This document shows, one piece after another, positions 9,487-11,598 of a DNA stretch of 12,531 nt (position 1 is the first letter of the stretch; each line of letters starts with the position of its first letter). The position numbers were made by a program, and so were the translations under genes. Source of the stretch: Calditrichia bacterium (GTDB taxonomy: Bacteria > Calditrichota > Calditrichia > RBG-13-44-9); contig JALXCH010000516.1 in the NCBI GenBank assembly GCA_026991005.1, positions 1 through 12,531 on the forward strand, read 5' to 3'. Under the pieces are notes generated by a model, which did not search any database, was not told where the DNA came from, and saw nothing but the letters and a program-made list of their open reading frames with translations.

Positions 9487-9526
9487 AGGTAAACCAATTT
9501 TCACCAGGACTTTAAATATAATAACA

Positions 9527-9555
9527 ATTATCGATGTTTTAAACGAATAATTGAA
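9527..9555 (-). promoter_or_regulatory. Candidate promoter of the MEMO gene
   Basis: On the - strand TTCAAT (9555-9550), 17 bases, GATAAT (9532-9527). The -10 box matches the consensus at five of six positions; the -35 box is moderate. Transcription would start near 9520, about 35 bases before the ATG at 9486. Confidence 0.5.
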
Positions 9556-9576
9556 TGTGAAAAATTCTTTAAACCT

Positions 9577-9594
9577 ACTTTACTTCAGTAAAGT
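9577..9594. promoter_or_regulatory. Perfect palindrome, possible operator
   Basis: ACTTTACTTCAGTAAAGT is two 8-base arms around TC. It lies between the MEMO promoter and the tRNA-Ser locus, some 60-75 bases upstream of the predicted MEMO transcription start, where an activator or dimeric regulator could bind. No T run follows, so it is not a terminator. The regulator is unknown. Confidence 0.45.
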
Positions 9595-9656
9595 GAATTA
9601 ATTTTTCGCTTTTTTCAATTCTATATGTTTTTTTTACGTGAAAAATGCTTTTAAAA

Positions 9657-9686
9657 TTGCACTTGATTTGTTGTCTTTCCTATCGT
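9657..9686 (+). promoter_or_regulatory. Possible promoter of the tRNA-Ser repeat locus
   Basis: TTGCAC (9657-9662), 18 bases, TATCGT (9681-9686), followed by a G/C-containing stretch before the first repeat unit at 9707. Both boxes are mediocre. If right, all four repeat units and the tRNA are in one transcript of about 540 bases. Confidence 0.3.
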
Positions 9687-9706
9687 ATTTTTGGCGCAAT
9701 ACGATT

Positions 9707-9809
9707 GGAGAGGTGGCCGAGCTGGCTGAATCCCGCAGCGGCGGGATGCTAAGCGAGTGTGAACTAGAAAACGGTTTTTGAGTTAACTGACAGATCAAAA
9801 AAAAAATTC
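9707..9809 (+). pseudogene. tRNA-Ser-derived unit 1
   Basis: Hairpin TCCCGC (9731-9736), AGCG, GCGGGA (9741-9746). The tRNA 5' acceptor strand and D-arm 5' half are intact; T arm and 3' acceptor strand are missing, so it cannot fold as a tRNA. Its tail has the longest A run of the four (about ten A near 9800). Confidence 0.85.
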
Positions 9810-9910
9810 GGAGAGGTGGCCGAGCTGGCTGAATCCCGCCACGGCGGGATGCTAAGAGAATGTGATCTAAAAAAGGTTTTTGAGTTATTTGGCGAATTGA
9901 AAGAAAATTC
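9810..9910 (+). pseudogene. tRNA-Ser-derived unit 2
   Basis: Hairpin stem as in unit 1 but loop CACG (9840-9843). The anticodon-side stretch reads TGCTAAGAGAATGTG, with two changes from the tRNA. It lacks the T arm and 3' acceptor strand. Confidence 0.85.
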
Positions 9911-10010
9911 GGAGAGGTGGCCGAGCTGGCTGAATCCCGCAGCGGTGGGATGCTAAGCGAGTGTGATCTAAAAAACCTTTTTGAGTTACCTGGTAAATTG
10001 AAATAAATTC
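9911..10010 (+). pseudogene. tRNA-Ser-derived unit 3
   Basis: The 3' hairpin arm is GTGGGA (9945-9950), a C-to-T change that keeps pairing as a G-U wobble. In the tail the A run and T run flank CC where unit 2 has GG. It lacks the T arm and 3' acceptor strand. Confidence 0.85.
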
Positions 10011-10109
10011 GGAGAGGTGGCCGAGAGGGCTGAATCCCGCAGCGGCGGGATGCTAAGCGAGTGTAGATTAAAAAAAGTTTTGAGTTACCTGGCAAATTGA
10101 AAGAAACTC
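10011..10109 (+). pseudogene. tRNA-Ser-derived unit 4
   Basis: The D arm reads CCGAGAGGGCTGAA where the other units and the tRNA have CCGAGCTGGCTGAA. Hairpin TCCCGC (10035-10040), AGCG, GCGGGA (10045-10050). The tail GAGTT...AACTC can pair with itself. It ends directly at the functional tRNA. Confidence 0.85.
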
Positions 10110-10201
10110 GGAGAGGTGGCCGAGCTGGCTGAAGGCGCTCGCCTGCTAAGCGAGTGTGGCAGCAAAAACTGCCACCGAGGGTTCGAATCCCTCCCTCTCC
10201 G
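10110..10201 (+). tRNA. tRNA-Ser(GCU)
   Basis: A complete class II tRNA. Acceptor stem GGAGAGG (10110-10116) pairs with CCTCTCC (10194-10200), discriminator G at 10201. Anticodon stem CTCGC/GCGAG encloses loop CTGCTAA with anticodon GCT (10145-10147), reading AGC/AGU codons. A long variable arm GTGGCAG/CTGCCAC with an A-rich loop, as in serine tRNAs, is followed by T arm GAGGG-TTCGAAT-CCCTC. CCA is not encoded (CTA follows), so it must be added after transcription. It is the last member of a tandem series whose four upstream members are broken. Confidence 0.97.
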
Positions 10202-10207
10202 CTATCA

Positions 10208-10239
10208 GGCTGATTAATTCACATTAATCAGCCTTTTTT
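10208..10239 (+). terminator. Intrinsic terminator after tRNA-Ser
   Basis: GGCTGATTAA (10208-10217), loop TTCACA, TTAATCAGCC (10224-10233), then six T. A perfect 10-bp stem seven bases after the tRNA. Confidence 0.92.
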
Positions 10240-10299
10240 ATTTACCTGAATTTATTTGCTATCTATGAGCCTTGTCTCTAAACAAACTATTTTTAAACA

Positions 10300-11598
10300 T
10301 CAAATTTCCCGTTCCGAGAAATTTTCCAGAATCTCTACTACCCGTTCCAGAAAACGCCCACCCAATTCACCATCCACAATCCGATGATCGAACGAGAGAG
10401 AGAGGTAAGCCATGGAACGAACAGCGATGGAATCGCCCATCTCGCTTTCGATAACCACGGGACGTTTTTTAATGGCGCCAATCCCCAGAATTCCCACATT
10501 GGGCTGATTGATAATGGGCAGACCAAAAATATTTCCGAACACCCCGTAATTGGTCACCGAAAAGGTAGAACCTTCGATGTCCCGCAATTGCAGTTTATTG
10601 GTTCGGGCACGCTGCACCAGGTCGTTCAGTGCCCGGGCAATTCCGCGTAAATTTAACCCTTCTGCCTGACGAATTACCGGCACAATCAGTCCCCGCGGCG
10701 AGGCAACCGCTACGCCCAAATTCACATGGCGATGGAGGATCATATTTTCTCCATCCACCGAGGCATTCATCCGCGGGAACTCCTGCAATGCTTTCACCAC
10801 CGCATATAAAATAAAAGGTGTGACGGTGAGCTTAAATCCTTCCTGTTCCAGAAAAGCGGGACGATGCTGCTGCATTATCTTCAGCACCTGTGTCATATCG
10901 CATTCCGAAACGGAATAGACGTGGGCGGAAGTATCCAGACTCAACCGCATGTGTTTGGCCATACTGCGGAGGACTGAATCCATGGGCACCACTTTTACCT
11001 CTTCGCCGGGCGCAAACATCGGTTCCACAGGTTGCTCCGGTGCTTTGGTCACCTCGGCTTTACGTTTCTGAATATAGCTTAACAAATCTTTTTTGGTCAC
11101 CCGACCATTCATTCCGGTACCGGGAATCGTTTCCAGTTCTTCCATGGAGATTCCTTCCTGTCGGGCGATATTGAGTACCAGGGGAGAATAGAATCGTCCT
11201 TCGGTACGGCGTTTTTTTGCCGGTGATTCGATGGGTTCTGCCGGCGGTGGCGCAGCTTCCGATGGAGTTGGAGGTGAAGTGATTTTTTCTTCTGGTAATG
11301 TCTCGGAAACGGGCGCAGATGCTTCCGCTGCGGACTCTTCCTCCGCACCGGCTTCCCCTTCCGTACGGATGCGAGCAATGACCGATTCCACCTCCACTGT
11401 CTCGTTCTCCTTGGCTAAAATTTCTTCCAGAACCCCGCTCACAGGACTGGGAATTTCCGAATCCACTTTATCGGTCGATACCTCCAGAAGGGTTTCATCT
11501 TTTTCCACCGCATCCCCCACCTGCTTGTACCATTTGATAATGGTTCCTTCCGTCAGGCTCTCGCCCAGTTTGGGCATTTTTACATCAACAACCATCAT
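10300..11598 (-). CDS. 2-oxoacid dehydrogenase E2 component (dihydrolipoyl acyltransferase)
   Basis: A 432-residue E2 subunit of a pyruvate or branched-chain 2-oxoacid dehydrogenase complex. It transfers the acyl group from the lipoyl arm to CoA and forms the complex core. Order of domains: one lipoyl domain (1-80) with the lipoylated K44 in STDKVDSE; an Ala/Pro/Glu-rich linker (81-130); a peripheral subunit-binding domain (about 136-176, YSPLVLNIARQEGI to GRVTKKDLL); a second linker; and the catalytic domain (about 200-430) with SFDHRIVDG, where H405 and D409 are catalytic. Two ATG codons stand in tandem at 11598 and 11595; GGAGA is three or six bases upstream, so the second ATG is equally possible. 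It lies 216 bases after the E1beta gene on the same strand, a gap with AT-rich 9-base repeats (11654-11680) and no clear terminator. Confidence 0.95.
   Translation of the reverse strand: MMVVDVKMPKLGESLTEGTIIKWYKQVGDAVEKDETLLEVSTDKVDSEIPSPVSGVLEEILAKENETVEVESVIARIRTEGEAGAEEESAAEASAPVSETLPEEKITSPPTPSEAAPPPAEPIESPAKKRRTEGRFYSPLVLNIARQEGISMEELETIPGTGMNGRVTKKDLLSYIQKRKAEVTKAPEQPVEPMFAPGEEVKVVPMDSVLRSMAKHMRLSLDTSAHVYSVSECDMTQVLKIMQQHRPAFLEQEGFKLTVTPFILYAVVKALQEFPRMNASVDGENMILHRHVNLGVAVASPRGLIVPVIRQAEGLNLRGIARALNDLVQRARTNKLQLRDIEGSTFSVTNYGVFGNIFGLPIINQPNVGILGIGAIKKRPVVIESEMGDSIAVRSMAYLSLSFDHRIVDGELGGRFLERVVEILENFSEREI

Follow-up and report, generated by a model that had tools for sequence, protein, structure and literature searches.

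The closest known enzyme to the nucleases considered here is phage SegB, a free-standing GIY-YIG homing endonuclease of phages T4 and T6 that cuts inside tRNA genes and drives the tandem amplification of tRNA-Tyr (PMC13096335). According to the published accounts, its preferred motif RAWTSGAAC is present at 23 of 83 sites (PMC13096335), and SegB is found near tRNA genes of many isotypes in many phages (PMC13096335, PMC2988022). The complement of the motif reads like a T loop. We describe a tandem array of partial, hairpin-interrupted tRNA copies directly upstream of an intact tRNA-Ser(GCU) gene in a Calditrichia bacterium (contig JALXCH010000516.1 of assembly GCA_026991005.1; the whole contig, 12,531 nt, is termed the window), together with comparable loci at other tRNA genes of the phylum Calditrichota. 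With some reserve, we regard it as probable that the array is what remains, on the 5′ side, of a mobile GIY-YIG homing cassette that targets a tRNA gene and carries a spare whole tRNA. The likeness to SegB is a GIY-YIG gene near tRNA genes, found in relatives (40 of 92 short domains) and not in the window. SegB, however, is a phage enzyme, whereas the putative Calditrichota cassettes are chromosomal and clustered by tRNA target, and have hairpin-interrupted tRNA halves and a spare whole tRNA, a combination in which they differ from SegB. Amplification by SegB copies the full-length tRNA, and the available text on it does not describe hairpin-bearing copies (PMC13096335).

The tandem repeats at Escherichia coli tyrT (rtT), to which an earlier note on this DNA had pointed, form a second comparison. 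In strain K-12 (L294, NC_000913.3, 1285500-1288500) a 19-nt tRNA-Tyr 3′ end occurs three times behind tyrV and once between tyrT and tyrV; at three of these four places the 19-mer is preceded by a collinear T-loop 9-mer, whose start is 76 nt upstream of it, with a 67-nt GC-rich insert between them. Singly, the 9-mers are weak matches (E 0.69), and the fold of the insert is not significant (z −1.4). The comparison proved a good lead, in that the rtT units resemble 3′ pieces of the tRNA with an interruption in the T loop; on this evidence, which is weak, it suggests that the tyrT repeats may belong to the same class as the units described here. Both are tandem units beside a tRNA, those of E. 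coli each ending in 19 nt of the tRNA 3′ end. The rtT units lie on the 3′ side only, have a larger insert and are accompanied by no annotated GIY-YIG gene in the stretch, whereas the units of the window carry a 5′ head and lie upstream.

Two further kinds of element bear a partial likeness. Certain homing elements of fungal mitochondria give a gene a new 3′ end, displacing the former one; there too an endonuclease gene brings a replacement piece of its host gene, but the hosts are protein genes, whereas here a whole tRNA is brought and hairpins mark the copies. Palindromes of the REP/BIME type, and palindromes inside RNA genes, are small, GC-rich and present in many copies, as are the hairpins here, which also occur in the RNase P RNA gene (rnpB); ours differ in being tied to particular places within tRNA copies, and often to a nuclease gene. 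No published account of the arrangement was found in the literature covered, the open-licence PMC full texts.

The array comprises four units on the forward strand, U1 (9707-9809, 103 nt), U2 (9810-9910, 101 nt), U3 (9911-10010, 100 nt) and U4 (10011-10109, 99 nt), which run in exact phase into the intact tRNA-Ser(GCU) gene at 10110-10202 on the same strand (ARAGORN; Rfam RF00005, 58.9 bits). Tandem Repeats Finder (TRF) places the array at 9707-10133 (period 101, 4.2 copies, 86% matches), and coordinates, TRF and ARAGORN agree on the phased tandem units that the earlier note had described. Each unit consists, in order, of a head (tRNA positions 1-24), a 16-nt hairpin, a 14-nt piece (tRNA positions 35-48) and an A-rich linker of 45-49 nt. 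These parts lie at 9707-9730, 9731-9746, 9747-9760 and 9761-9809 in U1; at 9810-9833, 9834-9849, 9850-9863 and 9864-9910 in U2; at 9911-9934, 9935-9950, 9951-9964 and 9965-10010 in U3; and at 10011-10034, 10035-10050, 10051-10064 and 10065-10109 in U4. The hairpin, TCCCGC-N4-GCGGGA, stands where tRNA-Ser(GCU) has its positions 25-34 (10134-10143, GGCGCTCGCC), and is present in all four units; the earlier note had named it in a proposed check and omitted it from its description of the unit. That every unit starts with the first 24 bases of the tRNA is exactly so for U1-U3, with 22 of 24 in U4, and the segment from the anticodon loop onward, also claimed for every unit, is exact as the 14-nt piece TGCTAAGCGAGTGT in U1, U3 and U4 and has two changes in U2. 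The pattern of head, hairpin and TGCTAAG accordingly matched three units exactly and nothing in 200 shuffles, U2 being missed through its two changes past the hairpin.

As had been noted, U1-U4 have no variable arm, T arm or 3′ acceptor strand, and the sole call of ARAGORN, and of Rfam at gathering scores, over the array is the tRNA at 10110-10202; at E up to 10, Rfam returned only sub-threshold matches of chance size for the units (E 3.7 and 7.6). The units are not tRNAs. Between units, differences number 0-2 of 24 in the head, 0-3 of 16 in the hairpin, 0-2 of 14 in the piece and 9-14 of 45-47 in the linker, a gradient that can reflect either selection or copying off the intact tRNA and is no proof of function. 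The earlier note had allowed for an assembly artefact, which is unlikely because an equivalent array sits in genome G002, assembled as a single 4,978,541-bp contig. The window holds no GIY-YIG gene and no 3′ unit (piece, hairpin and tail) behind tRNA-Ser(GCU), so we read the array as a relic, filed by its architecture alone; nor is there a further tRNA-Ser piece in the window outside the array at E < 0.2.

Integrase attachment sites usually leave tRNA 3′ ends, whereas the window has 5′ heads with hairpins, and a Pfam scan found no integrase among the ten window proteins. We give next to no credence to an origin of the array from the attachment sites of tRNA-using integrases. In its favour, many genomic islands of Caldithrix abyssi adjoin tRNA genes (PMC5317091).

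Units of the Ser type were sought in other genomes. An exact-pattern scan of genome contigs gave one relevant record, L002, from a Calditrichota metagenome-assembled genome (G001); a match in Acidimicrobiia (L001) showed no hairpin unit by eye and was dropped as unrelated, and viral contigs gave no match. Among 40 genomes of the phylum Calditrichota the exact pattern was found in G001 (one unit) and G002 (three). Both have the junction of the window, tRNA positions 24|35, which in G002 occurs in a 3′ copy as well; in G001 a 3′ tail piece stands behind a hairpin. The heads mostly match the tRNA of their own genome at variable D-loop bases (CT in the window, except in U4; TT in G001; TC in G002). 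Judged by the E2 gene of the window (10303-11598), these two genomes are distant members of its phylum: identity is 72% to a partial match in G037, 59-62% to G025, G026, G038 and G039, and 51% to G001, G002 and G003. The genomes nearest by tRNA and E2 gene (G026, G040, G038, G025 and G037) have no units at tRNA-Ser(GCU). The same units at the same tRNA in relatives, which the earlier note had proposed to look for, thus exist in G001 and G002 and are missing from the genomes nearest the window, a distribution more in keeping with a mobile element than with a conserved function as RNA.

A functional tRNA-derived RNA made from the units, be it a regulatory leader, a decoy or a small-RNA cluster, is very improbable for other reasons too. 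The units fold weakly (z −0.84, −1.28, −1.17 and −2.01, against −3.99 for tRNA-Ser(GCU)) and match no Rfam family at gathering score, the linkers of the window, G001 and G002 look unrelated to each other by eye, and elsewhere the same architecture is found patchily, at many tRNAs, on either side (with many units downstream of the tRNA) and often with a nuclease gene. What speaks for such an RNA is that the stems of the Ser units read all stay paired, the two stem changes (one C to T in U3, and one in the G001 unit) keeping G-U pairs, and that the array has no terminator-like site on the + strand, so that co-transcription with the tRNA is possible. For the same reason an upstream promoter could still drive a carried tRNA under the cassette reading. 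No promoter-like site was found on the + strand at 9500-10300, which makes transcription of the array an assumption. Of the suggestions in the earlier note, a small-RNA cluster or regulatory leader hence finds little support; the third, that the repeats arose as a family by duplication of the tRNA, is correct within its limits.

The window is one of 43 tRNA loci, of 18 tRNA types, at which hairpin-interrupted copies were tabulated (the window, 23 Calditrichota genomes and one other genome; 46 units before the tRNA and 43 behind); the table was made automatically over assigned loci, and some of its rows are cross-matches, such as Gln in L088, so that Gln is not to be counted. Among tRNAs not chosen for their flanks, a unit on the same strand was found at 15 of 102 in one survey set and 6 of 61 in a second (21 of 163 together), and on the opposite strand, as control, at 0 of 163; the second set came from seven genomes selected because of their hairpins, and its rate does not represent the phylum as a whole. 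The hairpin replaces positions 38-55 in Cys, 38-47 in Asn, 29-45 (the anticodon arm) in Val(UAC) and 51-58 in Asp. In Val(UAC), Cys, Asn, Asp and Pro one junction is used on both sides of the tRNA and across genomes, once BLAST ends and numbering shifts of 1 nt are allowed for; a Cys copy in G023 is exceptional in having a second hairpin, in the D arm. In G002, four 88-nt units stand before tRNA-Asn and seven 111-nt units behind tRNA-Cys.

Hairpins of this kind are not confined to tRNA elements. Many of the 40 relatives are enriched in TCCCGC-N4-6-GCGGGA (99 sites in G002, 0 in the control), and one or two hairpins of TCCCGC..GCGGGA type lie inside the rnpB genes of G002 (L018, 1045-1464), G003 (L022, 572-992) and G005 (L033, 309-731), which still score well against RF00010 (238-247 bits). 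In G005 (L027, L028, L030, L052 and other loci) the same hairpin takes the place of the middle part of other palindromic repeats, which lie between genes, for example GGATTCCGA|hairpin|CGGAATGAC and CCTGA|hairpin|CGAAGGG. That the hairpin is specific to tRNA elements is thereby ruled out. These sites, and the likeness of linkers within an array, favour a second explanation of the units, by which a single tRNA pseudogene was hit by a dispersed palindromic repeat and multiplied by unequal crossing-over, with the GIY-YIG genes as bystanders. Against it, all 17 A|TCCCGC..GCGGGA|YG sites of G002 lie in tRNA arrays or rnpB (four at tRNA-Asn, seven at tRNA-Cys, four at tRNA-Ser(GCU), two in rnpB), in a count whose flanks were chosen after the tRNA cases had been seen and with the other 82 of the 99 sites only partly read, many of them in clusters of another repeat. 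Hairpin sequence also varies by tRNA (TGGCGC in Pro, CCCGCC in Cys, TCCCGA in Val), so a single inserted repeat is no explanation, and the nuclease genes cluster by tRNA target. We hold this course of events to be distinctly improbable. A further repeat cluster in G002 (L012, 1369-2430), with GGATTCCCGC..GCGGGAATGAC repeats spaced at 40, 83 and 123 nt, resembles the neisserial dRS3 repeats.

Short GIY-YIG genes stand directly behind many of the unit-flanked tRNAs. We read 27 loci from one GIY-YIG search, and from another 30 loci and 40 further stretches in order of E down to 7e-11; the reading in Calditrichota thus covers matches to that limit and frames of at most 300 amino acids, which, with identical ones within a genome counted once, gave 92 short domains. 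Forty of these have an intact tRNA no more than 500 nt away; they come from 34 loci, five of which hold tandem pairs. All 40 are on the strand of that tRNA, and 38 are downstream of it. In a tree from a quick search (78 columns, unrooted, many open forks) all 40 fall on one side of a branch (SH-aLRT 96) that holds 57 rows, and none among the 35 others. Within that side they form clusters by tRNA target, with exceptions: Cys, Ser (four isoacceptors), Pro, Asn, Thr(CGU), Asp, Glu(UUC) and Val. Label changes on the tree number 13 for tRNA target and 29 for genome; the all-group count is 25, as against a mean of 39.2 when shuffled, with 0 of 200 shuffles as low. The 57-row side includes 17 rows with no intact tRNA in view, nine of which have tRNA pieces nearby. 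Wherever the tree predicted the tRNA for these, the prediction was matched (seven of seven, L125 having been seen beforehand), and for six of the eight without pieces the contig ends after fewer than 200 nt on the side expected to hold the tRNA. No tRNA pieces were found near the 35 rows outside the tRNA-associated side. At one locus of G005 (L070), the GIY-YIG frame behind tRNA-Val runs, by eye, into an interrupted copy, taking its last residues from tRNA and hairpin sequence. A tblastn search of viral contigs with one GIY-YIG protein gave 11 phage records, all less than 60% identical.

In its complete form a locus has 5′ units, the intact tRNA, the GIY-YIG gene and 3′ units, in that order. 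Units on both sides together with a GIY-YIG gene are found at Cys in G008, G017, G018 and G023, at Val in G005, at Glu in G008 and G026 and at Pro in G025 and G026, and units on one side with the gene at Cys in G006, Asn in G037, Ser(GCU) in G022 and Ser(CGA) in G002, the last with a tail-less 3′ piece in addition. The tRNA-Cys locus of G018 begins with an interrupted head, CTGCAA|hairpin|CGAATCCGGC, whose 5′ end is worn, followed by a linker and the intact tRNA-Cys; behind this come the GIY-YIG gene, an interrupted tail, CTGCAA|hairpin|CGAATCC..., and then the beginning of another GIY-YIG gene. At tRNA-Cys of G017 there are two 5′ units and two GIY-YIG genes.

Occupied and empty sites can be compared at tRNA-Cys, where units accompany 7 of the 24 intact loci found by similarity (G002, G003, G006, G008, G017, G018 and G023). 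A Gly-Cys-Leu run of tRNA genes is syntenic in part of the genomes. The Cys-Leu gap is empty (12-17 nt) in G009, G015, G016, G020 and G021, and occupied in G002 (815 nt), G006 (610), G017 (594), G023 (473), G008 (310) and G003 (119), the occupied gaps holding units and, in G006, G008, G017 and G023, GIY-YIG genes as well. Syntenic empty and occupied gaps mean that the DNA was inserted.

An alternative that keeps the nuclease and dispenses with insertion of a cassette is segmental amplification in the manner of SegB, in which the nuclease cuts the resident tRNA gene, repair over short repeats duplicates the tRNA and its neighbouring DNA in tandem, and the surplus copies are later disabled by hairpins. 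In its favour, GIY-YIG genes in tandem are accompanied by 3′ units in G006 and G017. It leaves unexplained why the extra copies have a hairpin, at one point on both sides and across genomes in several tRNAs, and how 5′ units come to stand before a tRNA whose GIY-YIG gene is behind it; we consider it unlikely.

We prefer the cassette as the simplest account of how these loci are built; it would work as follows. Let a naive tRNA gene be H-S-E: head, short target segment and tail. The GIY-YIG nuclease would cut in S, and repair would copy in a cassette made up of a hairpin, a few nt of E, the linker, a complete tRNA (H-S-E), the GIY-YIG gene, a few nt of H and a hairpin. The head of the invaded gene would be left upstream as H-hairpin-piece-linker and its tail downstream as piece-hairpin-E; this architecture is seen in relatives, whereas the order of events is inferred. 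The tRNA of the cassette would replace the lost function, keeping the cell alive, and because it still contains S it could be invaded anew, each round adding one unit per side, whereas the interrupted copies would be protected from cutting. Recombination or crossing-over between repeats would alter the numbers on either side. The array of the window would probably be transcribed as a long 5′ leader and removed by RNase P.

Several observations weigh against this reading. Besides the lack of a nuclease gene, a 3′ unit and a promoter-like site in the window, the absence of units from its nearest relatives and the provisional nature of the tree, they include the variation in junctions. Those of Glu(UUC) are several (27|45, 29|43, 56|57 and 56|65), those of Ser(CGA) and Ser(UGA) likewise vary, and the Ser(GCU) unit of G022 is interrupted at 72|75, in the T loop, and not at 24|35. 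A strictly fixed junction per tRNA is ruled out by the Glu(UUC), Ser(CGA) and Ser(UGA) cases, and the variable junctions of Glu and Ser lowered our confidence in the cassette slightly, from fairly good to somewhat less so. The 5′ and 3′ units of a locus often differ in number (8 and 0-1 at Ser(CGA) of G002). Under nested insertion the outermost unit should be the oldest, with the head least like the tRNA; head identity agrees in five of nine arrays, runs the opposite way in the window, L007 and L115 and is mixed in L247, so an age gradient along 5′ arrays was not used. The origin of the hairpin, which is present in rnpB and in intergenic repeats as well, is left unexplained. Nor does the cassette reading explain why the carried tRNA escapes destruction: segment S is identical in the tRNA-Cys of G008 (occupied) and G016 (empty), and as the carried tRNA keeps S, self-cutting must be limited somehow.

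Elsewhere in the window, a terminator-like site (+ strand) follows the tRNA at 10207-10244, with its stem at 10207-10234 and a T-rich tail, and a transposase with DDE domains (PF13751, PF01609) at 3-1019 is cut by the window edge. An open reading frame on the minus strand across the array (9634-10095) is taken as chance, because it has no Pfam family and not every unit length is divisible by three.

Beyond Calditrichota, the sample was 198 genomes of the phylum of G041 (Acidimicrobiia), from which 13 loci with a short GIY-YIG frame were read of 30 loci given. Two have interrupted tRNA copies: at tRNA-Arg of G146 (L268) an interrupted 5′ copy, the GIY-YIG gene and the intact tRNA follow in that order (BLAST and by eye), and at tRNA-Met of G059 (L265) interrupted heads stand around the GIY-YIG gene (BLAST pieces and by eye). 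Two more (L275, L282) are merely near a tRNA, and no tRNA was found at the other nine, two of which have a tmRNA gene nearby.

It is conceivable, if rather less than probable, that these loci represent a class of mobile elements residing in tRNA genes of at least two bacterial phyla, each comprising a GIY-YIG nuclease with a single tRNA as its target, a spare tRNA that makes good the invaded gene and hairpin-marked halves that can no longer be cut. The carried tRNA would make such elements hard to lose, and nuclease-less arrays, that of the window and perhaps those of E. coli tyrT, would be their fossils. The known settings of homing endonucleases are introns, inteins and intergenic DNA; to break an essential tRNA gene and supply its replacement would, if true, give such an element another means of living in a conserved gene. 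It would also explain tandem tRNA-gene fragments beside intact tRNA genes, and each group of nucleases should then cut one tRNA gene near the junction derived from its copies while sparing the copies with hairpins.
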